From Bacteroidota bacterium (GTDB taxonomy: Bacteria; Bacteroidota; Bacteroidia; NS11-12g; UBA955), in the NCBI GenBank assembly GCA_027490055.1, contig JAIXYV010000061.1:1-35118 (forward strand): a DNA stretch of 35,118 nucleotides, written 5' to 3'. The position numbers were made by a program, and so were the translations under genes. The notes beneath the pieces are model-generated. The model had not been told where the DNA came from. It saw only the letters and a list, made by a program, of their open reading frames with translations, and ran no database searches. Shown one piece after another: positions 1,593-21,104 of the stretch (within the stretch, counting starts at the first letter, position 1; every line of letters starts with the position of its first letter).

Positions 1593-1606
1593 GTGACCAT
1601 TATCAC
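1593..1606. promoter_or_regulatory. Crp/Fnr-type operator GTGA-N6-TCAC (site 1)
   Basis: GTGACCATTATCAC is a perfect 4+4 inverted repeat with a 6-bp spacer, preceded by T (TGTGA half-site as in E. coli CRP). Its centre is 36.5 bp from the last base of the -7 element at 1629-1636, giving about -41 relative to the predicted start of the persulfide operon. The same geometry recurs at 14748-14761 and 21089-21102. Confidence 0.7.
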
Positions 1607-1628
1607 TTAAAATCTTTATTTTTGATCA

Positions 1629-1636
1629 TAATTTTG
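1629..1636 (+). promoter_or_regulatory. -7 promoter element (TAATTTTG) of the persulfide operon
   Basis: TAATTTTG matches TAnnTTTG exactly and lies 28 bp before the ATG of the CstB-like gene. A second exact match, TATTTTTG, lies at 1617-1624. I prefer the downstream one because its distance from the operator equals that of the two other sites. Confidence 0.6.
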
Positions 1637-1664: not shown

Positions 1665-3074
1665 ATGAAAGTAGAACAGATTTATACCGGATGTATTGCT
1701 CACGCAGCATACTATATTGAGAACAATGGCGAAGCTGCCATCTTCGATCCACTGAGAGAAGTACAACCGTACATCGATCGTGCCATCAAAGACAATGCTA
1801 AAATTAAATACGTTTTTGAAACGCACTTCCATGCAGATTTCGTTTCTGGTCATGTCGACCTGTCTAAAAAGACCGGTGCGCAGATCGTATACGGACCAAC
1901 AGCAAAACCAGGATACGAAGCCATAGTGGCCGAGGATAATCAGGTGTTTAAAATTGGCAACTACAGTATCAAAGTCATCCATACCCCTGGCCATACCATG
2001 GAAAGTACCTGCTACCTACTCAGCGACGAAAATGGCAAAGAACATGGCATTATCACTGGTGATACACTATTTATCGGCGATGTTGGAAGACCCGACCTGG
2101 CTCAGAAATTAGTGTCCGATTTAACCCAGGAAAAATTAGCATCTACGCTTTTTGATTCATTGAGAAATAAACTAATGCCGCTTAGCGACGACTTAATTGT
2201 ATACCCTAATCACGGAGCAGGTTCTGCTTGTGGCAAAAACATGAGCAAAGAAACCACTGATACCCTTGGTCATCAGAAAATGGTTAACTATGCTTTGAGA
2301 GCTGACATGACAAGAGAAGAGTTCATAACTGAACTGTTGGATGGCTTAAACGCTCCCCCAGCTTACTTCCCTAAAAATGTGATGATGAACATTAACGGTC
2401 CGGATGGCATTGACTCGATCATGGAAAGAGGCTTTAAATCTCTTACACCTGATGAATTCGAAGCTGTTGCCAACGAAACCGAAGCTTTAATGCTTGATAC
2501 CAGAGATGCAGAAACTTTCAGACAAGGCTTTATTCCTAACTCTATCAATATTGGTATAGATGGCAATTTTGCTCCTTGGGTTGGCGCTTTGATTCCAGAC
2601 ATTAAACAGGAAGTCCTTTTGATATGCGATGAAGGTCGCGAACAAGAAGTGATTACCCGCATGGCCAGAGTTGGCTACGATTTCGCCATTGGTTTCTTAC
2701 AAGGTGGTTTCAAAGCCTGGAAAGAAGCAGGTAAAGAAGTTGATACAGTTGATAGAATAACTGCTACAGATTTAGAAGGTAGCTATAGCGCTGATACTAT
2801 CATTATTGATGTGCGCAACAAAGGCGAATACAATGCCGAGCACCTCGAAAATGCCATCAATATACCACTGGATTATATCAATGATCATCTGGCAGAATTC
2901 CCAAAAGATAAGACTTTTACCATTCATTGCGCCGGTGGATACCGCAGTATGATTGCCGCATCGATTCTTAAATCGAGAGGATGGGATAATTTTAAAGAAG
3001 TAGCTGGTGGATTTAATGCCATTTCGAAAACAAGTTTACCAAAAACAAATTTCGTTTGCGCCTCTAAAAAATAA
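1665..3074 (+). CDS. CstB-like persulfide dioxygenase fused to two rhodanese modules
   Basis: A 469-residue three-module protein. Residues 1-240 are an ETHE1/persulfide-dioxygenase-type metallo-beta-lactamase fold with THFHADFVSGH (H54, H56, D58, H63), TPGHT (H110), GDTLFIGDVGRPD (D133) and H183 in YPNHGAGSACG, the iron-binding set. Residues about 255-355 form a rhodanese-like module whose loop is CDEGREQE (C321), atypical and perhaps a pseudo-rhodanese. Residues about 365-460 are a standard rhodanese with C422 in HCAGGYRS. This order equals Staphylococcus aureus CstB, which oxidises protein- and thiol-bound persulfides and transfers sulfur to make thiosulfate. The protein is predicted cytoplasmic. 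It heads a seven-gene operon of sulfur-relay proteins with a Crp-type site and two -7 elements just upstream. Confidence 0.9.
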   Translation: MKVEQIYTGCIAHAAYYIENNGEAAIFDPLREVQPYIDRAIKDNAKIKYVFETHFHADFVSGHVDLSKKTGAQIVYGPTAKPGYEAIVAEDNQVFKIGNYSIKVIHTPGHTMESTCYLLSDENGKEHGIITGDTLFIGDVGRPDLAQKLVSDLTQEKLASTLFDSLRNKLMPLSDDLIVYPNHGAGSACGKNMSKETTDTLGHQKMVNYALRADMTREEFITELLDGLNAPPAYFPKNVMMNINGPDGIDSIMERGFKSLTPDEFEAVANETEALMLDTRDAETFRQGFIPNSINIGIDGNFAPWVGALIPDIKQEVLLICDEGREQEVITRMARVGYDFAIGFLQGGFKAWKEAGKEVDTVDRITATDLEGSYSADTIIIDVRNKGEYNAEHLENAINIPLDYINDHLAEFPKDKTFTIHCAGGYRSMIAASILKSRGWDNFKEVAGGFNAISKTSLPKTNFVCASKK

Positions 3075-3086
3075 GGATTAATCAAT

Positions 3087-3296
3087 ATGAAAAAATCAAC
3101 AGTGCTAACACTAACAGGTGTTGCAGCAGGAGGAATATTGGGTTTCCTGTATTGGAAATTTGTAGGGTGTGCTTCCGGCGCATGCGCCATCACCTCCAAA
3201 CCACTTAACTCCAGTTTATATGGCATGTTGATGGGCGGCTTATTGTTCAGCAATTTCAACTCAACTAAAAAAATAAAAAATGACAGCACTAACTAA
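3087..3296 (+). CDS. DUF6132 small membrane protein
   Basis: A 69-residue protein with two likely membrane segments (about 6-25 and 45-60) separated by a conserved loop containing C28 and C33 (GCASGACAITS, then a small-residue YG motif). This is the signature of the DUF6132 family, which in Bacteroidota usually lies beside rhodaneses, sulfur transporters and thioredoxins. The two cysteines would lie near the membrane surface and suggest a redox or sulfur-carrying role, but no function has been shown. The gene starts 12 nt after the CstB-like gene and overlaps the HMA gene by 17 nt. Confidence 0.75.
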   Translation: MKKSTVLTLTGVAAGGILGFLYWKFVGCASGACAITSKPLNSSLYGMLMGGLLFSNFNSTKKIKNDSTN

Positions 3297-3567
3297 AGAA
3301 ACAATTCTGATAGCCAACCTTAAATGCAGTGGCTGCGCTAATACCATCAAACGCAACATCAGTGAACTTCCGGGCATCAAAACCGTTGAAGTTGATCCCG
3401 ATACTGATGCTGTTATTGTCGAGTATGACGATACACTTCAAAGAGACACTATCACTAAAAAACTTAGCTCATTAGGCTACCCTGAAGCAACAGAAGACAA
3501 CGGTTTGCTTTTGCAGTTAAAGAGCTACGCCAGTTGTATGATTGGCAGATTACATAACGACAAATAA
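3280..3567 (+). CDS. heavy-metal-associated (HMA) domain protein
   Basis: A 95-residue protein with one HMA ferredoxin-like domain. The metal-binding loop is LKCSGCANT (C16, C19), followed by a GI(K)TVEVD strand and a LGYPEA end, all as in MerP/CopZ-type carriers. No copper ATPase or other metal transporter lies next to it; it is embedded among rhodaneses, so the CxxC may carry sulfur or protect thiols rather than, or as well as, bind copper. Residues 75-95 form an unusual tail with an extra Cys (about C87). Overlap with the DUF6132 gene implies translational coupling. Confidence 0.85.
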   Translation: MTALTKETILIANLKCSGCANTIKRNISELPGIKTVEVDPDTDAVIVEYDDTLQRDTITKKLSSLGYPEATEDNGLLLQLKSYASCMIGRLHNDK

Positions 3568-3576
3568 TATCAAACA

Positions 3577-3861
3577 ATGAACATAGAAAAAATGATCAAC
3601 GAAGACGCAGCTACAATTGTAGATGTAAGAACTGTCGCCGAATTTATGGGTGGACATATTGCAGGTTCAGTAAACATCCCACTGGGTGAGTTAGCAGAAA
3701 GAACCGATGAAATTAAATCGCTACAAGGACCAATCGTTCTGTGCTGTGCATCTGGCATGAGAAGCGGACAAGCACAACGTTTCCTATCACAGTTGGGCAT
3801 CGAATGCTACAACGGTGGCGGCTGGATGGATGTTAACTATTTAAAAGGTAAAATGGCTTAA
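3577..3861 (+). CDS. single-domain rhodanese
   Basis: A 94-residue rhodanese-like domain without signal peptide. It has the N-terminal DVRTVAEFMGGHIAGSVNIP motif (about residues 16-35) and the active-site loop CASGMR with C57 preceded by another Cys (LCCASGMRSG). The six-residue loop beginning with Cys and ending with Arg is that of sulfur-transferring rhodaneses, which pass sulfane sulfur via a cysteine persulfide. It lies 9 nt after the HMA gene and 2 nt before a second rhodanese with the same CCASGMRS loop, so the pair probably arose by duplication. Confidence 0.9.
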   Translation: MNIEKMINEDAATIVDVRTVAEFMGGHIAGSVNIPLGELAERTDEIKSLQGPIVLCCASGMRSGQAQRFLSQLGIECYNGGGWMDVNYLKGKMA

Positions 3862-3863
3862 TC

Positions 3864-4178
3864 ATGTTAGCAGCACTTAAAAAATTATTCGGACTCGCCC
3901 CGGCAGTTAACTACGCCGATCTGATGAAAAATGGTGGCGTGATCATCGATGTTAGAACCAAAGGCGAATTTGCTGGTGGCCATATCAAAGGCTCAGTCAA
4001 TATTCCACTGGATCAGCTCAGCAGCAATCTTGCTAAATACAAAGATTTAAATCAGCCTATCATCACATGCTGCGCCTCTGGAATGAGAAGCGCTTCAGGT
4101 AAAAACATTCTGAAATCTAAAGGCTATAACAATGTCCACAATGGTGGTTCTTGGATGAGTCTTAGAAACAAGATATAA
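3864..4178 (+). CDS. single-domain rhodanese (second copy)
   Basis: A 104-residue rhodanese with a short hydrophobic N-terminal extension (about 15 residues) that the previous copy lacks. The motif IDVRTKGEFAGGHIKGSVN lies at about residues 28-46, and the active loop CASGMR starts at C70, again after another Cys (TCCASGMRSA). It ends with HNGGSWMSL, matching the NGGGWMDV end of its neighbour. With the two modules in the CstB-like protein the operon encodes four rhodanese units. Predicted to relay sulfane sulfur between low-molecular-weight or protein thiols. Confidence 0.9.
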   Translation: MLAALKKLFGLAPAVNYADLMKNGGVIIDVRTKGEFAGGHIKGSVNIPLDQLSSNLAKYKDLNQPIITCCASGMRSASGKNILKSKGYNNVHNGGSWMSLRNKI

Positions 4179-4196: not shown

Positions 4197-4448
4197 ATGT
4201 GGACCAATTTAAAATCCATTCTATTTTCAGGCTGGAACCTCAACAGAGGTCTCCGCCTGATCATAGGTATTGCCATACTGTTTCAATATTTTGAACAAAA
4301 AGATATTTTTATCGCCATGATCAGTGGCACGCTGATTTTGCAAGCAGTTTTTAATGTTGGCTGCTGCGGCTCTAGTAACTGTGCCGTAGAACCCCGACGA
4401 ACAAAATCACAAACGATAGAAGACACCACTTTTGAAGAAATAAAATAA
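4197..4448 (+). CDS. small cysteine-rich membrane protein of the rhodanese operon
   Basis: An 83-residue protein with two likely membrane helices (about 17-32 and 36-54) followed directly by NVGCCGSSNC (C56, C57, C62) and a charged tail. I do not know a formal family name. Similar short proteins with SGWN/RGLRL at the start and GCCG after the second helix occur next to rhodaneses in Bacteroidota and resemble the membrane part of YgaP (DUF2892). The cysteine trio at the membrane edge suggests a redox or sulfur role; this is inference from context. The gene lies 18 nt after the rhodanese and 1 nt before thioredoxin. Confidence 0.65.
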   Translation: MWTNLKSILFSGWNLNRGLRLIIGIAILFQYFEQKDIFIAMISGTLILQAVFNVGCCGSSNCAVEPRRTKSQTIEDTTFEEIK

Positions 4449-4449
4449 T

Positions 4450-4752
4450 ATGTCAAACGAGAAATTTAAAGAAATCATCAACAGCGAAATACCAGTGCTG
4501 GTCGACTTTTCGGCCGAATGGTGCGGACCCTGCAAAATGATGAAACCCATTTTAAACGATCTAAAAAGTCAGATGGGCGAAAGGGTAAGAATCATTAAAA
4601 TTGATGTCGACCAAAACCCAGCCATTGCCTCAGCCTACGCGATTCAAGGTGTGCCAACCCTAATGGTATTTAAACAAGGTAAAATGGAATGGCGTCAGAG
4701 CGGTGTTCTAAGCGCCAGCGAGCTTTCTAAAATCATTGCCCGCTATGAATAA
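4450..4752 (+). CDS. thioredoxin
   Basis: A 100-residue cytosolic thioredoxin with the active site EWCGPCKMM (C25 and C28) and the cis-proline segment QGVPTLMVF near residue 76. Length is normal for Trx, without signal peptide. As the last gene of the operon it probably reduces the rhodanese persulfides or the CxxC/CC proteins encoded before it, returning them to the thiol state. It starts one base after the stop of the cysteine-rich membrane protein. A hairpin follows its stop. Confidence 0.92.
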   Translation: MSNEKFKEIINSEIPVLVDFSAEWCGPCKMMKPILNDLKSQMGERVRIIKIDVDQNPAIASAYAIQGVPTLMVFKQGKMEWRQSGVLSASELSKIIARYE

Positions 4753-4840: not shown

Positions 4841-6109
4841 TTATTCTTTACAAAGATCGTATAGAATTCTGATGTCCTCGAGTTCGCTATCCGATTTATC
4901 TGAATTCAATAATTCTGAAGCCGGATACAATTTCAACTGATGATTTTCGCGGCGCATAATTAAAGGGTTTACATCTACCCTGAACTGTATTTCACCAGAA
5001 CTATCTTTCCCTATTGAAATTTTTAACCAGGCGCACAAATGGCACCAGGTGTAAATATCGTAGGCAATAAAATCGGCCAGACTATAAATAGCAAATCCTG
5101 TTTTTTGCTTACCCGTACCAGCCTCTTTATATTGGTAATAGCGCCATGGCTGCAGATTATGAGGATGCCCTCCTGCTATAACATCAATACCACAGCGTTC
5201 GAAGAGCTGAGCCACTAGATCAATAGAGCGCATCGAAGGATAAACCTGATACGCATTTCCGAAATGAAGCGAACATATAATAAACTCGGCACCAGCAGCT
5301 CTGCAAGCTTTCACATCTGCTTCTATTCTGCCGGTAGGACAGTGACTGAGATTTAAAGGCAGATAGTTAACCTTCCAGGGCTTGTCTTCAGGCGGCAATA
5401 GTTGATTTAAAGAAAACGTATAAGCCACAAATCCTATTTTGATACCATTCACTTCTCTAATCACATAATCGGGATCTGATTGCTGGTGTTTGGCCCCAAC
5501 TGCCGATATCGATTGCTGCTGCAGGTACCACAATGTAGCATCCAGGCCAGACTCACCCATATCCATGCTGTGGTTATTGGCGACACTTAATACATCATAT
5601 CCCTTGTAGCGACCAGCGCCATTGAAGATAGAAAAGGTCGTCTCATCCGTATTGAAATGCATATCACTCAACATCACTTCAGGCACAAAACTACTTTTCT
5701 GAGACACATCCAAAGGTGTTTCGAGATTGGCAAACACAAGATCAGAACCAAAGAAATCAGAACCTACAGAATCCCACAAATACTTAGTGCTTGAAGGCTT
5801 TATCATTTCATAGGGCATCAGATCTCCGCCAATTGAAATGGTGCAAGCAGTTTCAAATTCAGGAGAATGTGATGGTCGTTTCGAAAAATGGTCAACTATA
5901 TTGTCTACTATCGGAAGTTCAGGAGACTTGTAATAGTATTTATAAGCGAAATACAGGATGTCTTTAAACCTGTAAGTTCTTGGATTCTCTTCAAACTCAA
6001 GGGCGCGCTCCCATCGCTTACCATAAATAAGATGCACAGGCCAAAGCAGGCATTTCAATACCAGACACAGCATCTTGCCTTTAACCGTATATGGTCTGAC
6101 AATTTTCAA
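4841..6109 (-). CDS. CapA-family (PGA_cap) metallophosphoesterase-like protein
   Basis: A 422-residue protein with the CapA fold of calcineurin-like metallophosphoesterases: GGDLMPY (D96), FANLETPL (N128, E130), SVANNHSMDMGESGL (N179, H180), the later CSLHFGN (about H275) and GGHPHNLQP near residue 310. CapA proteins take part in poly-gamma-glutamate or capsule production, but most homologues are uncharacterised. The first 85 residues are an extra segment with hydrophobic residues 13-28 and are not part of the family domain. The start is TTG at 6109, 5 nt after a -7 element; ATG at 6073 with a purine-rich leader is an alternative. Downstream of mgtE on the same strand but with its own promoter-like element. 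Confidence 0.8.
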   Translation of the reverse strand: MKIVRPYTVKGKMLCLVLKCLLWPVHLIYGKRWERALEFEENPRTYRFKDILYFAYKYYYKSPELPIVDNIVDHFSKRPSHSPEFETACTISIGGDLMPYEMIKPSSTKYLWDSVGSDFFGSDLVFANLETPLDVSQKSSFVPEVMLSDMHFNTDETTFSIFNGAGRYKGYDVLSVANNHSMDMGESGLDATLWYLQQQSISAVGAKHQQSDPDYVIREVNGIKIGFVAYTFSLNQLLPPEDKPWKVNYLPLNLSHCPTGRIEADVKACRAAGAEFIICSLHFGNAYQVYPSMRSIDLVAQLFERCGIDVIAGGHPHNLQPWRYYQYKEAGTGKQKTGFAIYSLADFIAYDIYTWCHLCAWLKISIGKDSSGEIQFRVDVNPLIMRRENHQLKLYPASELLNSDKSDSELEDIRILYDLCKE

Positions 6110-6114
6110 TGTCT

Positions 6115-6122
6115 CAAATTTA
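6115..6122 (-). promoter_or_regulatory. -7 element (TAAATTTG) before capA
   Basis: Minus-strand TAAATTTG matches TAnnTTTG and overlaps the mgtE stop codon. It would start a transcript within a few bases of the capA TTG codon, letting capA be expressed apart from rsmA-mgtE. Confidence 0.45.
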
Positions 6123-7478
6123 GATACCTAATAATAATCTTCCAAGAGAAAAATACACCCCTAGTCCGATAACATCATTGATTGTAGTGATAAACGGACC
6201 AGTAGCAAGCGCAGGATCTATTTTAAAACGCTCAAGAATAAGCGGTGTTATGGTTCCAAGTAGTGAAGCAAAAACAATCACTGTAATAAGCGCTATACTC
6301 ACCACCATGCTGAGGTTATAACCATGACCGATAATGAGATTAAACATCAGCAAAAGTGCTGAACAGACTAATCCGTTAATCATAGCCACTGTAAACTCCT
6401 TACCGAGTTTGGGCAAGATGTTTTTACTTTTTAAAGTGTTATTGGCGAGACCTTGAACGATAATTGCTGACGACTGCACACCGGCATTGCCTCCCATAGC
6501 CGCGACAACAGGCATAAAGAACGCCATTTTAGGCAGATTTGAAATGTCTCCTTCAAAATTAGACACCAGCATAGAACTACCTAAGCCACCAATCAGACCT
6601 ACCATCAACCAGGGCAAACGTGCTCTCGACAAAATCAGTACCTTGTCTTCACTTTCTACGCTTTCACTCAAACCCGCTTGTAACTGGAAATCCTTATCAG
6701 CTTCCTCTTTGATAAAATCAACCACGTCATCGATGGTGATTCTGCCAATCAAGCGGTTCATGCTATCAACAACAGGAATAGTGATCAAATCGTATTTCGT
6801 CATTAATCGCGCTACCTCTTCGCCTGTCGCATAGGCATTTACAGCTATGTATTCAGTTTTGGTAATTTCAATCACCGAAGTGTGTGCCTTAGCCAAAACG
6901 ATGTCCTTTAAAGACACAACACCTTTCAGAATGTTGCGCTCATCCACCACATAAACAGCATGCACAGAATCTACCTCTTCAGCCTGTGTTCTTATTTCTT
7001 CGATACACTGACTAACGGTCCAGTTGTGTTTTACCTGAACCAACTCCTTTGCCATCAGACCACCAGCAATATCGTCATCATAATGCAGCATTGCTGCCAG
7101 ATTTTTGGCATACTCCTGATCATAAATAAAAGCAAGAACTTGCTCGGCTTTACGGGTTGGTAAAATATTAAGAATATCTACAGAGTCATCCGAATCCAGA
7201 TAAGAAACCACATCATCTGCTATTTCTTTTGGCTCGTAGCCTTTGAATAAGCGCTCTTGTAATTCGGGATCCAGCGAACGGATTACCTCAACAGCCTTTT
7301 GTTTTTCAATAACCTTGATGAGAAATTTGGCATCATCTAACTCAATATCCCAGAAAATTTCGGCAATATCCTCAGGGCGATAGTTCTCCAGTTCAGTGAC
7401 CAGACCCTCACTGTCCTGCCCTTCTAGAAAAGGACGCAATTTCAAAAGGAGTTCTTTCTCTGAAACCTGGGTGCTCAT
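6120..7478 (-). CDS. mgtE: magnesium transporter MgtE
   Basis: A 452-residue protein of normal MgtE length. Order: cytosolic N-domain of superhelical repeats (about 1-130, with LLPTRKAEQVLAFI-like repeats), two CBS domains (about 135-265, including VVSLKDIVLAKA and IGRITIDDVVDFI), the connecting plug helix, and five membrane helices (about 285-450) with the conserved MPVVAAMGGNAGVQSS signature of the first pore region. MgtE is a dimeric Mg2+ channel gated by Mg2+ binding to the N and CBS domains. Its ATG overlaps the rsmA stop as ATGA, so it is translated from the rsmA transcript. Confidence 0.95.
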   Translation of the reverse strand: MSTQVSEKELLLKLRPFLEGQDSEGLVTELENYRPEDIAEIFWDIELDDAKFLIKVIEKQKAVEVIRSLDPELQERLFKGYEPKEIADDVVSYLDSDDSVDILNILPTRKAEQVLAFIYDQEYAKNLAAMLHYDDDIAGGLMAKELVQVKHNWTVSQCIEEIRTQAEEVDSVHAVYVVDERNILKGVVSLKDIVLAKAHTSVIEITKTEYIAVNAYATGEEVARLMTKYDLITIPVVDSMNRLIGRITIDDVVDFIKEEADKDFQLQAGLSESVESEDKVLILSRARLPWLMVGLIGGLGSSMLVSNFEGDISNLPKMAFFMPVVAAMGGNAGVQSSAIIVQGLANNTLKSKNILPKLGKEFTVAMINGLVCSALLLMFNLIIGHGYNLSMVVSIALITVIVFASLLGTITPLILERFKIDPALATGPFITTINDVIGLGVYFSLGRLLLGI

Positions 7479-14383: not shown

Positions 14384-14593
14384 TTAAGGTTTTTCTACCG
14401 GACAAGTTCTAATACCAAAGATGGCATAGAGCGGGCAAAAACTCACCAAAGATGTAAGTGCAAATACCGCACCTAATACCACTAAGACGATACCAACTGT
14501 ACCAGTAACTGTTCCATTAAAATAAAGGAAAGCAAAAATTGCCGCAAGTATCACTCTGATTACTCTGTCGGCGGTTCCCATGTTCTTTTTCAT
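14384..14593 (-). CDS. DUF2892 (YgaP-like) inner-membrane protein
   Basis: A 69-residue protein with the DUF2892 pattern: N-terminal MGTADRVIRVILA, two membrane helices (about 10-27 and 31-50), and the SFCPLYAIFGIRTC end with C53 and C63. In E. coli YgaP this unit anchors a rhodanese; free-standing copies in Bacteroidota occur beside rhodaneses and MBL sulfur enzymes. It is directly downstream of the Crp/Fnr regulator gene, with a GTGA-N6-TCAC site and a 16-bp palindrome between the two. Confidence 0.88.
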   Translation of the reverse strand: MKKNMGTADRVIRVILAAIFAFLYFNGTVTGTVGIVLVVLGAVFALTSLVSFCPLYAIFGIRTCPVEKP

Positions 14594-14704: not shown

Positions 14705-14720
14705 TTGTATCATGATACAA
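14705..14720. promoter_or_regulatory. perfect 16-bp palindrome TTGTATCATGATACAA
   Basis: TTGTATCATGATACAA equals its own reverse complement. It lies upstream of the DUF2892 gene and overlaps the predicted transcription start and the edge of the -7-like element (14718-14725). It could be a repressor operator acting with the activator site 28 bp further upstream, or a hairpin at the 5' end of the mRNA. It differs from GTGA-N6-TCAC, so a second regulator is possible. Confidence 0.5.
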
Positions 14721-14725
14721 ATTGA
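14718..14725 (-). promoter_or_regulatory. -7-like element (TCAATTTG) before DUF2892
   Basis: Matches TAnnTTTG at 7 of 8 positions on the minus strand. I rate it because its distance to the operator (36.5 bp to the centre) equals that at the other two sites. TTAGTTTG at 14667-14674 is an alternative promoter nearer the gene. Confidence 0.4.
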
Positions 14726-14747: not shown

Positions 14748-14761
14748 GTGACCAAAGTCAC
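14748..14761. promoter_or_regulatory. Crp/Fnr-type operator GTGA-N6-TCAC (site 2)
   Basis: GTGACCAAAGTCAC is a perfect inverted repeat (GTGAC / GTCAC, 5-bp arms). It lies 3 bp beyond the stop codon of the Crp/Fnr regulator gene and upstream of DUF2892 in the direction of transcription. Confidence 0.65.
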
Positions 14762-14764
14762 CAC

Positions 14765-15400
14765 CTATAAAATTTCTATACTATCTTGATTTTGCTTGAG
14801 TTTACCATCCTTCTCTAGCTTTTTCACCAGACGACTAACCACCTCTCTTGCAGTTCCTAGTTCATTTGCCAGTTCACGATGAGAGATTTTCACTGGATTT
14901 TTACCTGTAATTTCAGCACGCTCTTTTAAAAAATCATATATACGTTTATCCAGCTTATCAAAAAGTAAATGGTTAATCGTACCTACTAATTCAGTATATC
15001 TCAAATCAAACTGCTGATAATACAGCAAATTGAGGCGCGGATAAGTATAAATCCATTGTGAAAGCAACTCACTAGGCAAAAGCAGCAAAACACTATCCTC
15101 GATACACAAGGCATACACTTTACTTTTTTCCTGTCGAAGACCAGCAATAAATGACATGACACAGCTTTCAAATGGTTGAATGTAATACAGTAAAAGTTCT
15201 TTGTCTTCTTGTCTTGTATACACTTTTACTAACCCATTTAAAAGAATAGGAACATAATTAACATATTGCCCTTCATGAAGAATTTCTGAGCCTTCCGGAA
15301 TGTTTTTCACTACTGCCTTTTCAGTAATGATATCAATGAGTTCTTTCCCAAGAAAACCCATTTTCTTCTGAATCAGATCGTATTGTTGCGTAACTTCCAT
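14765..15400 (-). CDS. Crp/Fnr family transcriptional regulator
   Basis: A 211-residue regulator of normal Crp length. Residues about 20-125 form the cyclic-nucleotide-type beta barrel (EILHEGQYVNYVPILLNGLVKVY), then the dimer helix, then a winged helix (about 148-208) with recognition helix TAREVVSRLVKKLE (183-196). R185, E186 and R190 match E. coli CRP R180, E181 and R185, which read TGTGA. The barrel lacks the GELALL-RA cAMP phosphate signature, and no FNR four-cysteine cluster is present; C80 and C99 are the only cysteines, so a thiol/persulfide or other small-ligand signal is conceivable. Three GTGA-N6-TCAC sites occur in this window, one right after its own gene. Confidence 0.9.
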   Translation of the reverse strand: MEVTQQYDLIQKKMGFLGKELIDIITEKAVVKNIPEGSEILHEGQYVNYVPILLNGLVKVYTRQEDKELLLYYIQPFESCVMSFIAGLRQEKSKVYALCIEDSVLLLLPSELLSQWIYTYPRLNLLYYQQFDLRYTELVGTINHLLFDKLDKRIYDFLKERAEITGKNPVKISHRELANELGTAREVVSRLVKKLEKDGKLKQNQDSIEIL

Positions 15401-15533: not shown

Positions 15534-18500
15534 CTACCGAATTAATATGGGGCGCCAAAGTGTTTCGTCTGCTGTCTGTATCTCCATGACATATATACCT
15601 TGAACAATTGCGGAAACATCAATACTTACCTGAGCTGAACCGCCTTCGAATTCACCCACAACTCTGCCATCAAGGGTTCGGAGAATCAGTTTTCGCAATG
15701 CTTCTCCAGTATTGCTCATGACCACCAGCGATTCAAAAGCTGGCTGAGGAAAAACCTCAATAATATCTTCTGTCCGGCTCATGCCTCGCGTCCCACTGCT
15801 GCCATTATACCCTGCACAACCTGTGCATTTACCTCCGGCATAGCAAAGATTATTTACACCTTTTAATGTCCCACCACTTATATAATTTTCTTTTTTCATA
15901 CCATTTGAAACATCTGTTAGAATTCGATATAGTTTAGGGGCTGCTTTGTCAAGGCCGTTTGCCGGCGAGGGCGACCAATAATTACCGCTCCCGAGAAGCA
16001 TATAGGGACTTATGGTTTGGTGACTGCCAGAATTGTAAGGAACATTTCCAACAACAAAGCCAGCGTCTTCCGATTGACCTTCGTAAATAAAATTGTTTTG
16101 TCCGTTCTGCAGGTATAATTGAGTATAGTCAACACTAACTCCCAAACCTGAAGATTCAACAATTGTGCTATTGCCTCCGCTTAACGTGTAGTTGAATGCT
16201 TTAGTGGTTTTATCCTGACTTAAATTAATAGACCCGTACTTAAATCTTAGGGCACAGCTATTCAGAATCATTTGTGTGCATGCTAAAGTTGCTTCAGTGT
16301 TTTCAGCCTTAACACCATCCGTATTTGACGCAAAACTGCATTTATCAATCAAAAGCACTTTAGGAAACGCTGTTGAATTAAACACATTGACGCCATGCCT
16401 GTTCATAATAAAATGGGAACTGGCAGTCACCAACTGTTTACCATCCTGCAGCATCAGTATGCCATTGTCCTTTTGATTTCTGAAACTTGAATTCGTCACT
16501 GTGGTGTAAGCATGCCCCAGAACCATGCCGTTGACACCCTCTTTAAACAGGCACGCTTCTACGTTTAACTGTGCATCTTTTGTTACCTCGAAGCTTGCAA
16601 TACCTGTTTCAAAATACTGGAAGTCGCAGTTGCGAATCAATGCCTTTGAAAACTGCTTCAGATAAAGCGCTTTGGACGAATACTTTCTTGCCCAGGACAG
16701 CACATCAAAAGCCACATGATGAACCTCAGCAGAACCATTGAGCACCATACTACTCGAATCGCCATAGGCTATTCTGCCATAGACAAACTTAATTTGCCTG
16801 AAAGGATTTAGTGGTGAGAAGTCGACCTCCCCTTCAATCTGCAGCATCTGGTCATTTGCCTTTCCAGAACCACTTAATAAAAAGGAAGCCTGATGACCAA
16901 TAGCGGTAATTTTAGCAGCACCGTATCCACCACCCACATGCCTGAATCTCACCAGACCAGTTCTACCGGTTCTGCCGCCATAAACAGTAAATTCAGCCCC
17001 ATCTCCAACTATCAGATGACCGTCTATATGCAAACCTGCATTATTACCATCTAGAACTATTTTGGCCCCCTTGGCAAAACGCAATTCAGATCCGTCTTCT
17101 ATAAATAGTGTAGATCCGTTATGAATATAGACAGTCGACCCACCTTGAAGTTCAAGAACAGAACCCCTTGTAATCGTTAGTATCCCTTTATTATTACCAT
17201 CTAAAGCAGCAGACCCTATTTCTAATCTTCCTGAATCTGCTATAACAATAATAGGATGGCAGAATTTTGTCTGGGCTGAATAATAACTACCTGCTTTATT
17301 CACTTGATCAAAACGACCATTACCGAAACCATTTCTACCATTGCCATTGATGAACAAAGTACCTTTAACCGTATGGGTTCCAATCGTATTAAGAGACTCC
17401 CGCCCCATATTATAAGTAGTCGTAATAAGCTCTGGTTTATCATCCCTATTTTCTTCCAGCTGCTGAATTAGCCAGGCTATATTATCATCGGTAATCATCA
17501 TGTGTTCCTGACCCTGACCCTCGACACCATAAAAGGCATCGAAAGGTGTGTAGATTGGATTTTTGCTATCTCTAACTAGTCGACCAGCGATATCGAATCG
17601 GGAATCTTTGTTGTATAGATCTAAGGCGCTATACGTGGGAATAAAACATGTAACCTCTTTTCGGTTTAAAATATTAAACACTCCGTAAATCGCTTTGTAT
17701 TCAGCAACATCAAACCTCAGCGAACCCGGAATAAAATCATTTTGCAAAGCCTCTTGTGGCACTTCAACAACATGCTTACTTCGAAATGGGTACTGTGCTT
17801 CAAGAACGATATTCTTACCATCAATGCTTGCGTATGTCGACCATACAGTGGCGGACACTTCGAGAATATCAAAATTTAACTTACCTAGATATGGGTTCAT
17901 TTTTAGCAACTCTTCGCCAGCGGCGTGACCGAGATCGACGACATTGATACTGCCATTTAACAAAGCTATTTTGCGACATAATTGCGGGTAACTGCCGAGC
18001 TGACCCAGAGCAGCAGTAAACGCTACCCTATCGCCATGCTCTCCCCCACCATCCATTGAGAGGCAATGTGCCTGAAGTAACTGTCGGGATGCGGCTCTGT
18101 TTATTTTACGACTAAACTGATCTCTGACTTTTGGCAATTTTCCTTTGTAGTACTTTAGGAAATGTTGCAAGCCCAATGGAATATTAGCCCCTTGATTGGG
18201 CGAATCAAATGCAACAAAATTACGGACGCAATGAGGGGTTTGTAATTTCTCCATGTATGACAAAGCAAAGCGAGTTATTTGCCCACCCATACTGGCACCT
18301 ATTACTACAATCTCTTCCTTACTGCATTTAATAAAATTGACTCTACGAATGAGTTCCACCAGCAGCATGGCGTTGTTCTCCATAAAATCTGCCCCATTAT
18401 GAAAATCGAGATAGATTAAATCGTAGCCATTGTTTCTTAGTTCTGAAATCAGTTGCGGCGCTTTAACAATGGGCGCCCAATGTTCGTAAGCATCGCTGGC

Positions 18501-19526
18501 TTTTTTTTCATAAGGATTAAAAACTGAGCCTCTTAATAAATCTCGCAATCCCATTGAGCCGCATTTACCACCATAGCATCCGGTAGCGTGATCCTGGTAG
18601 CCAAAATCTATCCCTTCAACAAAAATTATAGGCTTTTTAATGCAGGTATTTGGAATACCATTGGTAAGTCCGGGTACCACCTCCACATACGCCCCAAGAG
18701 GTTCACCGGTTTCTGTTCCGCGATAAGGTGTTGTATAGATATTTCGCTTATCATCTCCTATTTTAAAATCTGTGATGATATCGTTCGCAAACGACTCTTC
18801 ACCAGCCTCAAACATCATCTCACAATTCGTATAATAAGTTTCGCCGTTACTGAGCGTATATTGAATCTGAAGTAGGTTTAATCCCTTAGAGAGAGGCAGC
18901 TGAGTTACCTGGTTATACTTTACCGGCAAAAACAACCCACCATTCAACCGCAACTGAACCTCTCTAAGCGTTAAACCACTATTGGTATAGAAAAAAGTAT
19001 CGCTAAACAACAATTTAAGATCAGGTTCATAAAACCTTTGCACAAAAGGTGCTGATAGAAAAACACTTCGTTGTTCTAGCGTACTTTCAAAATTATCTGG
19101 TCTTAACTTTCCATTGACTGTATCTATTTGGAGCAGACCACTATCAATGGCAGAGCGCTTAAACTTCTCGCCCTTTGCAAACAGAACAGGCACAGGAATA
19201 ATTCCCTGCCTGAAATAAGCCGTCCAGTATTGATTTAGTCGTTCGTACGATGGTGGTCTTGAGACAGAATCAATTATCGAAGCAGACCAATGCTGGTAGA
19301 GCTCCGACCACTTAGTATAGTCAGCCAGCCCATCAGATTCGCGACCAGCAAACTGAAGCAGGGATGTGTCCGTCATGCCATACTCCCACAGACAGGCATT
19401 CTGACCTTGTTTAAACTGAACATAGTGGTCGAACATCGACGACCATTCATCATTCTGAGCATCCAGAGGCTTAATAAAGCCAAGAGCAAGGACTAGCAGT
19501 CCGAATAAAACTTTTGTGTATCTCAT
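15534..19526 (-). CDS. large secreted T9SS protein: lipase-like domain plus parallel beta-helix
   Basis: A 1330-residue exported protein. ATG 19526 is chosen because it places a signal peptide (LFGLLVLALGFIKPLDAQ) at the N-terminus. Residues about 300-560 resemble an alpha/beta hydrolase of the lipase/PGAP1 kind: FVEGIDFG at the first strand and VVIGASMGGQITRF with nucleophile S412. Residues about 700-1220 are a repetitive beta-helix, with many TVYIHNGSTLFIEDGSELRF-type rungs rich in G, N and V. The end has a type A sorting tail: VFPQPAFESLVV, then GIYVMEIQT and a short basic finish. The cargo would be exported by the type IX system, perhaps acting on lipids or esters at a surface. The substrate is unknown. 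Confidence 0.82.
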   Translation of the reverse strand: MRYTKVLFGLLVLALGFIKPLDAQNDEWSSMFDHYVQFKQGQNACLWEYGMTDTSLLQFAGRESDGLADYTKWSELYQHWSASIIDSVSRPPSYERLNQYWTAYFRQGIIPVPVLFAKGEKFKRSAIDSGLLQIDTVNGKLRPDNFESTLEQRSVFLSAPFVQRFYEPDLKLLFSDTFFYTNSGLTLREVQLRLNGGLFLPVKYNQVTQLPLSKGLNLLQIQYTLSNGETYYTNCEMMFEAGEESFANDIITDFKIGDDKRNIYTTPYRGTETGEPLGAYVEVVPGLTNGIPNTCIKKPIIFVEGIDFGYQDHATGCYGGKCGSMGLRDLLRGSVFNPYEKKASDAYEHWAPIVKAPQLISELRNNGYDLIYLDFHNGADFMENNAMLLVELIRRVNFIKCSKEEIVVIGASMGGQITRFALSYMEKLQTPHCVRNFVAFDSPNQGANIPLGLQHFLKYYKGKLPKVRDQFSRKINRAASRQLLQAHCLSMDGGGEHGDRVAFTAALGQLGSYPQLCRKIALLNGSINVVDLGHAAGEELLKMNPYLGKLNFDILEVSATVWSTYASIDGKNIVLEAQYPFRSKHVVEVPQEALQNDFIPGSLRFDVAEYKAIYGVFNILNRKEVTCFIPTYSALDLYNKDSRFDIAGRLVRDSKNPIYTPFDAFYGVEGQGQEHMMITDDNIAWLIQQLEENRDDKPELITTTYNMGRESLNTIGTHTVKGTLFINGNGRNGFGNGRFDQVNKAGSYYSAQTKFCHPIIVIADSGRLEIGSAALDGNNKGILTITRGSVLELQGGSTVYIHNGSTLFIEDGSELRFAKGAKIVLDGNNAGLHIDGHLIVGDGAEFTVYGGRTGRTGLVRFRHVGGGYGAAKITAIGHQASFLLSGSGKANDQMLQIEGEVDFSPLNPFRQIKFVYGRIAYGDSSSMVLNGSAEVHHVAFDVLSWARKYSSKALYLKQFSKALIRNCDFQYFETGIASFEVTKDAQLNVEACLFKEGVNGMVLGHAYTTVTNSSFRNQKDNGILMLQDGKQLVTASSHFIMNRHGVNVFNSTAFPKVLLIDKCSFASNTDGVKAENTEATLACTQMILNSCALRFKYGSINLSQDKTTKAFNYTLSGGNSTIVESSGLGVSVDYTQLYLQNGQNNFIYEGQSEDAGFVVGNVPYNSGSHQTISPYMLLGSGNYWSPSPANGLDKAAPKLYRILTDVSNGMKKENYISGGTLKGVNNLCYAGGKCTGCAGYNGSSGTRGMSRTEDIIEVFPQPAFESLVVMSNTGEALRKLILRTLDGRVVGEFEGGSAQVSIDVSAIVQGIYVMEIQTADETLWRPILIR

Positions 19527-19656
19527 AATTGTCTTGTGTAAATTTTTACAAAAACAAATTTGAGACATCCCTCAGATAGTTTTAAAGTCTGTTTGATAAG
19601 TGGTGCAATCGACTTAACAAGTGGACCAAAAAATTAATAAGTGGGAAGTATAGGAC

Positions 19657-20419: not shown

Positions 20420-20815
20420 CTATTTGAGCTTATCCAGATACTCAGGTTCAAATTTTCTAAACGGAGAAATTACATAGAGCAATAAGATTCTGGAGTATCG
20501 GTAAGAGAAAGGCACCAATAGGACAGATGTTGTTACCACTGTAATAACAATCTTATTCCACGACCAGTTATTGTTGACCGCTAAGACCCCAAAAACAATC
20601 ATAAAAAGCGTACTAAAAGCATAGCTAATGTACATAGCACCCCAGAAAAAGCCCGTTTCGTGTTCAAATTTTAACTGGCAAACGGGACAATAATCGTTTG
20701 TTTTACTGAAGCCTGTTGGATCGAAAGCTGAGCCTGTGAATACTTTACCGCTACGGCATCTTGGACATTTACATGACAGCATGCTGCCTATTTTAGATGG
20801 ATATTTACCCTGCAT
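20420..20815 (-). CDS. DUF983 membrane protein
   Basis: A 131-residue protein with the DUF983 pattern: N-terminal CKCPRCRSGKVF zinc-binding-like cysteines (about 15-20), a second YCPVCQLKFEHETGFFWGAMY motif (about 43-63), then two membrane helices (about 60-80 and 86-105). DUF983 genes commonly adjoin cytochrome oxidase genes in proteobacteria and Bacteroidota; a role in oxidase assembly is suspected but not shown. It overlaps the CPMC protein gene by 11 nt and so depends on the same promoter. Confidence 0.85.
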   Translation of the reverse strand: MQGKYPSKIGSMLSCKCPRCRSGKVFTGSAFDPTGFSKTNDYCPVCQLKFEHETGFFWGAMYISYAFSTLFMIVFGVLAVNNNWSWNKIVITVVTTSVLLVPFSYRYSRILLLYVISPFRKFEPEYLDKLK

Positions 20816-21050
20816 AATCAGTCACCTGAGTTTTTCTGTATTTTTTATACCATAAAACGCCAACGGTGATGATAATAAGATAGACAGCACCTAATAACAT
20901 TAAAATTCCAATATTAAGTCCCATTCCAACACTTTTCTTGCCGGCAGACTGACTACTTTCAACACTGGCTTTGCACATAGGGCACTGAGCGGCAGCAGAA
21001 ATTGTAGTGAGCAGAAAAACAAGCAGACTGAAAGAAATTTTCTTTAACAT
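20805..21050 (-). CDS. small exported membrane protein with CPMC motif
   Basis: An 81-residue protein with a signal peptide (residues 1-21, ending SAAAQ), immediately followed by CPMCKASVESS (C22 and C25), and one membrane helix (about 46-68) with a basic KKYRK end. The CxxC would sit on the periplasmic side right after the signal cleavage site, a plausible copper- or heme-relay or thiol-redox position. I know no named family. It lies between DUF983 and the CtaM gene in the oxidase block but has its own promoter with a GTGA-N6-TCAC site, and its ATG is only 8 nt beyond the -7 element. Confidence 0.75.
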   Translation of the reverse strand: MLKKISFSLLVFLLTTISAAAQCPMCKASVESSQSAGKKSVGMGLNIGILMLLGAVYLIIITVGVLWYKKYRKTQVTDYAG

Positions 21051-21058
21051 TTCGGATA

Positions 21059-21066
21059 CAAATTTA
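21059..21066 (-). promoter_or_regulatory. -7 promoter element (TAAATTTG) of CPMC-DUF983
   Basis: Exact TAnnTTTG match on the minus strand, 8 nt before the ATG, 36.5 bp from the centre of the operator. Confidence 0.65.
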
Positions 21067-21086: not shown

Positions 21087-21104
21087 TAGTGACTAAAATC
21101 ACTA
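21087..21104. promoter_or_regulatory. Crp/Fnr-type operator GTGA-N6-TCAC (site 3)
   Basis: TAGTGACTAAAATCACTA has perfect 6-bp arms, the longest of the three sites. It lies 5 bp outside the CtaM stop codon, in the 59-bp gap before the CPMC gene. Confidence 0.75.

Follow-up and report, generated by a model that had tools for sequence, protein, structure and literature searches.

Whether three short palindromes that stand at one and the same distance from a promoter element could be the operators of a single regulator, and what such a regulator would control, is the question raised by this locus. The window (the whole stretch of DNA analysed here, 35,118 nt) is the entire contig C7 of a 3.02-Mb genome in 121 contigs, G000, and amounts to 1.2% of it. 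An earlier note on this DNA had read the palindromes as sites of class II activation by a Crp/Fnr protein, and had joined persulfide oxidation, rhodaneses, DUF2892 and CPMC/DUF983 in one regulon.

Three equally spaced palindromes and the genes behind them

Exact GTGA-N6-TCAC occurs three times in the window and no more. The first copy, GTGACCATTATCAC, lies on the forward strand at 1593..1606 and is a predicted Crp/Fnr operator with its centre at a predicted -41.5. It is followed on the same strand by the -7 element TAATTTTG (1629..1636), which matches TAnnTTTG and, by the placement of this box at -12 to -5 in the excerpted text of PMC9723704, predicts a transcription start near 1641. The other two copies are on the reverse strand. 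One, GTGACTTTGGTCAC (14748..14761), is exact and begins 3 nt past the stop codon of a Crp gene, and its partner at 14718..14725, also on the reverse strand, is the -7-like element TCAATTTG; the other, GTGATTTTAGTCAC (21089..21102), is likewise an exact copy and a predicted operator, and is paired with TAAATTTG (21059..21066, reverse strand), a TAnnTTTG element. At all three sites the gap from palindrome to TTTG is 26 nt, the final G of the -7 element lies 30 nt from TCAC, and the distance from the centre of the palindrome to that G is 36.5 bp, so that the positions and the equal distance given by the earlier note are reproduced throughout. One correction concerns TAnnTTTG, the element of its proposed scan, which is matched exactly at two of the promoters, the element ending at 14718 having one mismatch. 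All three palindromes start 3-7 nt past an upstream stop codon.

Behind the first promoter is a forward-strand run that opens with a metallo-beta-lactamase and rhodanese protein of the persulfide-dioxygenase type (PDO, 1665..3074), in which Pfam recognises Lactamase_B and two Rhodanese stretches and for which the substrate is a prediction. There follow a small protein with weak likeness to DUF6132 (3087..3296; the match to Pfam PF19628, E 7e-5, narrowly misses the cut-off), a heavy-metal-associated (HMA) domain protein (3280..3567), two single-domain rhodaneses (3577..3861 and 3864..4178), a small protein with no family match (4197..4448), relatives of which come after a rhodanese gene in other predicted regulated operons, and a thioredoxin (4450..4752) that closes the run; the HMA, rhodanese and thioredoxin assignments are from Pfam. 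A search of this genome with one SQR query returned no match at 1e-20. The second promoter precedes, on the reverse strand, a YgaP-like transmembrane protein of the DUF2892 family (14384..14593; PF11127, E 1.4e-22), which lies beside the gene for a Crp/Fnr regulator (14765..15400, reverse strand; Pfam cNMP_binding, HTH_Crp_2 and Crp), the candidate activator. The third precedes a small CPMC protein without a Pfam or NCBIfam match (20805..21050) and a DUF983 protein (20420..20815; Pfam), both on the reverse strand. Between the CPMC/DUF983 pair and the Crp gene, at 15534-19568, is a gene for a 1344-aa protein with beta-helix and PGAP1-like matches and a sub-threshold Por secretion tail; a similar gene is found in the same order in G013.

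A fixed promoter layout

The spacing was examined in 80 loci, the best 80 of 589 relatives, which were collected by a scan of named genomes with 12 Crp homologues, using the recognition helix as pattern and making no use of the palindrome. The titles of these best 80 of 589 are nearly all of Bacteroidota, the exceptions being one Chlorobi, one labelled Klebsiella and one uncultured bacterium. Within them the gap between GTGAY-N4-RTCAC and TTTG is 26 nt in 31 cases and 27 nt in 10, against an average of about 1.5 over 56 gap lengths. These 26-27 nt cases are 41 distinct sequences and come from 36 loci. Of the same best 80 of 589, 37 carry an exact palindrome whose TTTG is 24-28 nt away and 43 do not. 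None of four control palindromes gave a gap peak, of which only TTGA-N6-TCAA (108 occurrences) is as frequent as the motif (110), the other three being rare (10-22 occurrences). A second, smaller TTTG peak at 31 nt (seven cases among the best 80 of 589) is unexplained.

Across the 108 genomes of the order, GTGAY-N4-RTCAC-N26-TTTG is matched 96 times, in 52 genomes, and its reversed control 9 times. Ninety-five distinct matches were found again in loci, and 85 of them lie outside open reading frames of at least 90 aa. In these 85 intergenic sites, for which palindrome and TTTG were the sole requirements, 90% have A at position 38, so that the full TAnnTTTG box emerges unasked. Between the operator and this box no -33 box is conserved in the 85 sites. 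The position -41.5 is that of a class II activator. In the 5'-end map of Flavobacterium psychrophilum, as excerpted, TAnnTTTG is located at -12 to -5 (PMC9723704), which would put the operator centre at -41.5 here, and the same -7 box is reported for Bacteroides (PMC7366714, likewise an excerpt). With 36.5 bp to the last G, no -33 box and a transcription start carried over from another species, the predicted placement is that of a class II promoter. This, together with the presence of a Crp/Fnr gene in the window, favours the class II activation that the earlier note had suggested.

A stricter pattern that includes TAnnTTTG is matched 35 times, in 26 of the 296 genomes of a phylum sample (control, 1), among them the window genome's own two, and 7 of the 35 are outside the class. 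The presence of the strict pattern in only 26 of the 296 indicates that the signal is common in parts of the Bacteroidota and not general.

Conservation ahead of orthologous genes

The earlier note had looked to orthologous promoters in relatives as a check on its proposal. PDO and CPMC loci were chosen by protein family, without use of the motif, and 30 listed loci were compared for each (38 genomes matched PDO and 34 CPMC; one PDO copy was taken per genome), related genomes being counted although they are not independent of one another. Ahead of PDO, a palindrome with at most one mismatch within 160 nt and TTTG at 24-28 nt from it are found together in 13 of the 30 loci, against about 1% of random windows, and a perfect palindrome in 11 (random windows, 1.6%); 17 of the 30 fall below the threshold for palindrome plus spacing. 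In the same genus the site and its spacing accompany PDO in five of seven loci, the window's own included, and the best PDO copies of G004 and G015 are without it. The 14-mer ahead of PDO in G013, G008, G010 and G011 is identical to that at 1593-1606. Some PDO genes with no site of their own sit within TauE-led operons that have one (G021, G099, G106). In G027 and G024 a Crp gene is directly 5' of PDO, with a palindrome in the 30-nt layout in between.

Of 15 same-genus CPMC loci, again with the window's own included, 7 have a perfect palindrome that ends 37-40 nt upstream of the start codon, and five others a two-mismatch version at the same place. Outside the genus none of 15 loci has a perfect copy, and three have a copy with one mismatch from which the spacing is absent. 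Conservation at this promoter is thus partial.

The promoter of DUF2892 was followed through the neighbouring Crp gene. In G013 the 14-mer of this promoter, its gap and its TCAATTTG recur unchanged beside a Crp gene 75% identical to that of the window. Among the best 80 of 589 relatives there are 31 window-type Crp loci (40-57% identity), of which L209 was dropped because its contig ends. In 21 of the remaining 30 a perfect palindrome overlaps or abuts the Crp stop codon (random, 0.4%), in 24 a palindrome with at most one mismatch does so (random, 1.5%), and in 19 TTTG follows at 25-27 nt from the palindrome, all three counts being within the best 80 of 589. The check on relatives therefore came out in favour of the proposal for PDO, for DUF2892 and for same-genus CPMC, but not for PDO in G004 and G015 or for CPMC outside the genus. 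In the named window-type loci TGCA, which is outside the core motif, often comes next after the palindrome (GTCACTGCAC...).

One Chitinophagales metagenome-assembled genome, at locus L208, brings together within 16.6 kb a rhodanese, a window-type Crp, SQR, and PDO and DUF2892, both of which have a site (with a 27-nt gap at DUF2892). A further gene in this stretch, similar to the AhpC-type target of L166, also has a site. The three sites, at 26-27 nt spacing, are thus set amid PDO, Crp, DUF2892, peroxiredoxin-like and SQR genes, and the locus offers a compact test case.

Targets across the order

Eighty-two of the intergenic order sites are outside the window. Fifty-nine of these precede operons with a sulfur family among the first five genes (PDO, rhodanese, SQR, TauE, SoxB-like, YgaP/DUF2892, CPMC or DUF6132-like), and in 51 that family is the first gene; the count is post hoc, with family references drawn partly from the targets themselves, and here too the related genomes do not count as independent. 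Background loci from the window's own genome, scored with the same references, lie ahead of these families in 3 of 48, where the 48 include some places more than once and near-sites on contig C76 make up two of the three matches. Representative target families were checked with Pfam and NCBIfam and the others were labelled by similarity to reference proteins; the SoxB-like target matches TIGR04486 at E 4e-82, below the cut-off of that model. The regulon drawn by the earlier note around persulfide oxidation, rhodaneses, DUF2892 and CPMC/DUF983 appears well founded in each of its links on this comparative evidence.

None of the listed sulfur families is found behind the other 23 of the 82 sites. 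Among the other targets are 2-oxoacid:ferredoxin oxidoreductase, OsmC, AhpC, PaaA, homogentisate dioxygenase, a thioredoxin-reductase-like protein and a di-haem peroxidase. In two same-genus genomes (L133, L135) a site is ahead of 2-oxoacid:ferredoxin oxidoreductase, with no evident sulfur link, and in two others of the genus (L132, L138) a site is ahead of an OsmC-like gene.

Such targets bear on the strongest alternative, namely that the sites are real Crp/Fnr operators at which the signal is NO, oxygen or redox state, as for HcpR-, FNR- or Dnr-like proteins, and that the sulfur genes are one part of a broader respiratory regulon. The oxidoreductase, the peroxidase, AhpC, the thioredoxin-reductase-like protein, OsmC and the oxygenases would all suit this alternative, and HcpR motifs are likewise of the GTGA type. 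Against it is the weight of sulfur-family operons among the 82 sites, and Pfam, run on 20 target proteins, shows no hybrid-cluster or NO-reductase family, the other targets being labelled by similarity. The window protein moreover has two cysteines and is without the N-terminal cluster of the FNR type. We regard this alternative as unlikely, though it deserves more weight than any other.

Sites are more frequent in order genomes with the Crp, 28 of 36 having them compared with 24 of 72 others (p = 1.5e-5, with a bit-score split that was chosen after the list had been viewed). Among the 39 order genomes with no, weak or fragment Crp matches, 15 have sites all the same, among them G021 and G089, both nearly complete.

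The Crp/Fnr protein

The protein encoded at 14765-15400 belongs to the Crp/Fnr superfamily, with PF00027, PF13545 and PF00325 all above cut-off. An AlphaFold model of its 211 residues (pLDDT 90.8, pTM 0.70) finds CRP (1i5z, E 1e-15) as its best PDB match. Its recognition helix, SREVISR, aligns with SRETVGR of CRP, so that R185, E186 and R190 supply the Arg-Glu-x3-Arg arrangement. In 97 homologues Arg185 is kept in 96, Glu186 in 93 and Arg190 in 96, figures that are in part circular, since that helix had itself served to find or filter the loci. Cys80, which played no part in the choice of loci, is present in 96 of the 97, the remaining one having a gap; it aligns two residues before Glu72 of CRP (CRP numbering). 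A second cysteine six residues past Cys80 is found in 44 of the 97. The window protein is without this second residue, its only cysteines being at 80 and 99.

The N-terminal [4Fe-4S] cysteines of FNR are absent from the window protein, which has no match to an Fnr model, and an identity as FNR was rejected on these cysteine positions and model scores. An identity as cAMP-CRP was also considered, in which a global Crp of the cAMP type would act at these sites in ordinary catabolite control. Fold, half-site and recognition helix are all CRP-like, but Arg82 of the cAMP pocket is seldom retained (R in 1 of 97 by the HMM alignment column, or 3 of 97 by a column chosen by eye), and the protein scores 35 with the CRP equivalog model against a cut-off of 266, with FtrB, NtcA and other named models likewise far below theirs. 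The residue and the model scores led us to reject cAMP-CRP as an identity, and exact palindromes without genome-wide enrichment (see below) do not indicate a large cAMP-Crp regulon, so that catabolite control is a very improbable explanation. Membership of the SqrR/BigR, CstR or FisR groups does not apply, as both protein family and fold are those of Crp.

The genome has three Crp homologues, among them a paralogue on contig C13 and one on C76. The last contig (L090; 6.4 kb, region 5240-6380) has a G+C content of 52.7% compared with 40.8% in the window, carries another Crp and a DUF2892 gene, and has two palindromes that show the spacing with a total of two mismatches; it may be a contaminant. 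A tree of 65 Crps combines 59 of the named loci (from the best 80 of 589) with six further ones. On the window's side are 33 rows, 26 of which have DUF2892 within 900 nt downstream, and on the other side TauE, PDO or DUF2892 follows in 30 of 32. Fourteen of the 21 named loci omitted so that the tree stayed small are titled Flavobacterium, and only three of the 21 hold a site.

Chance and genome-wide counts

The bare exact palindrome occurs 24 times in the genome and 36 times in the reversed control, and is not enriched. All 21 copies outside the window fall inside mechanical open reading frames of at least 167 aa, the three in the window being the only intergenic ones. Three of 24 is roughly what would be expected to be intergenic in a mostly coding genome, and it is therefore clustering, spacing and conservation that carry the evidence. 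Three of the 24 in this one contig has a binomial p of 0.0027; one-mismatch sites number 18 in the window against 11.2 expected, a value reached by 3 of 100 shuffles; and TTTG at exactly this gap, on either side, at all three sites has p ~3e-6. In a whole-genome scan the palindrome with N22 and TAnnTTTG is matched exactly twice, each time in the window, and one mismatch adds five more, which are the third window site and four elsewhere. The argument of the earlier note that three intergenic, equally spaced copies are hard to obtain by chance thus stands for clustering, spacing and conservation but not for the bare palindrome. Scattering of palindromes at random positions, which it had named as grounds for refutation, describes 21 of the 24, all within reading frames, but not the three of the window.

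On contig C106 of the same genome (L044), GTAACTAAAATCAC shows the 26-nt layout with two mismatches in total, ahead of DUF2490 and a PF03601 membrane protein, PF03601 being a putative sulfate-exporter family. It is possible that this site is a degenerate member of the regulon.

Chance palindromes, or short hairpins past stop codons, would agree with a genomic count below its control and with the 33 of 83 order sites that lie within 20 nt of the end of a co-directional upstream gene, but the gap peak at 26-27 nt (best 80 of 589), the order-wide excess over the reversed control and the conserved position leave this explanation with almost no probability, and the controls already refute its chance version, for which reason a chance origin of the layout was rejected.

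Relation to known systems

The predicted arrangement resembles the class II promoters of E. coli CRP in its Crp fold, its helix, its GTGA-N6-TCAC operator, which is the operator of CRP itself, and its centre at -41.5. It differs from that system in having no conserved Arg82, a score below the equivalog cut-off, a Bacteroidota TAnnTTTG promoter and sulfur genes as targets. FNR and HcpR are of the same superfamily, whereas here there is no FNR cysteine cluster and there are no nitrosative targets among those annotated. The best PDB sequence match (E 1.6e-36), and the third by fold, is a Crp/Fnr protein from the Firmicute Eubacterium rectale, 3dv8, which has a cysteine in the Cys80 column and a second one six residues on.

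The dedicated reactive-sulfur regulators named in the excerpted texts of PMC9774590 and PMC7315123 are of the ArsR, CsoR and Fis types. SqrR and BigR control sulfide and persulfide detoxification genes through cysteines (PMC9774590, in excerpt), but are ArsR-family repressors and not, as predicted here, a Crp-fold activator. FisR (Fis-family, sigma-54) and CstR (CsoR-like) also place sulfur genes under reactive-sulfur control, with other protein families and promoter types (PMC9774590, PMC7315123, both in part). Within the Crp family, Acinetobacter A1S_1182 is persulfidated under sulfide, with an effect that the source states to be unknown, and glutathione activates Vfr and PrfA (PMC7315123, in excerpt). 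By analogy with these proteins, thiol sensing by a Crp fold seems plausible; they are tied to thiols, and the same excerpt does not describe them as controlling sulfur-oxidation genes (PMC7315123). In the open-licence literature we found no report of a Crp/Fnr sulfur regulon in Bacteroidota and no account of how sulfide or persulfide oxidation is controlled in this phylum. OhrR, to go by the title of a reference, is reportedly also a reactive-sulfur regulator.

A predicted sulfur-oxidation regulon

We consider it probable that the three window sites belong to a class II (-41.5) sulfur-oxidation regulon under a Crp/Fnr-type activator, either the protein at 14765-15400 or the paralogue on C13, or both. 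In the mechanism we propose, a dimer of this activator would bind GTGAY-N4-RTCAC centred at -41.5, in the place of a -33 box, and would recruit the polymerase with the primary Bacteroidota sigma factor to the TAnnTTTG promoter. It would thereby switch on the run of PDO, rhodanese and thioredoxin genes, the YgaP-like gene (DUF2892) that neighbours the regulator, and CPMC-DUF983, and across the order the same signal would act ahead of genes for sulfide, persulfide and thiosulfate oxidation. Cys80, with a second cysteine six residues on in some homologues, may sense reactive sulfur, and the signal is perhaps persulfide. Binding, activation, the identity of the acting paralogue and sensing by Cys80 are what we infer from sequence comparison. 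More tentatively still, and with somewhat less than even confidence, we suggest that in a Crp/Fnr subfamily common among Bacteroidota the cyclic-nucleotide pocket could have been turned into a Cys80 sensor of persulfide or polysulfide, the protein being a direct activator of the oxidation of sulfide, persulfide and thiosulfate.

With its single fixed promoter layout, a Crp/Fnr regulon offers a concrete and testable answer to the question of how Bacteroidota control sulfide and persulfide oxidation, and the evidence points to a sulfur-response switch so far undescribed. It points also to candidate sulfur genes, namely DUF2892, CPMC/DUF983, the DUF6132-like gene and OsmC, and, for a phylum whose -7 box is non-standard, supplies a design that pairs activator and promoter. 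If the sensing role of Cys80 is true, this subfamily would bring a new fold class to the dedicated reactive-sulfur sensors, and one that is an activator.
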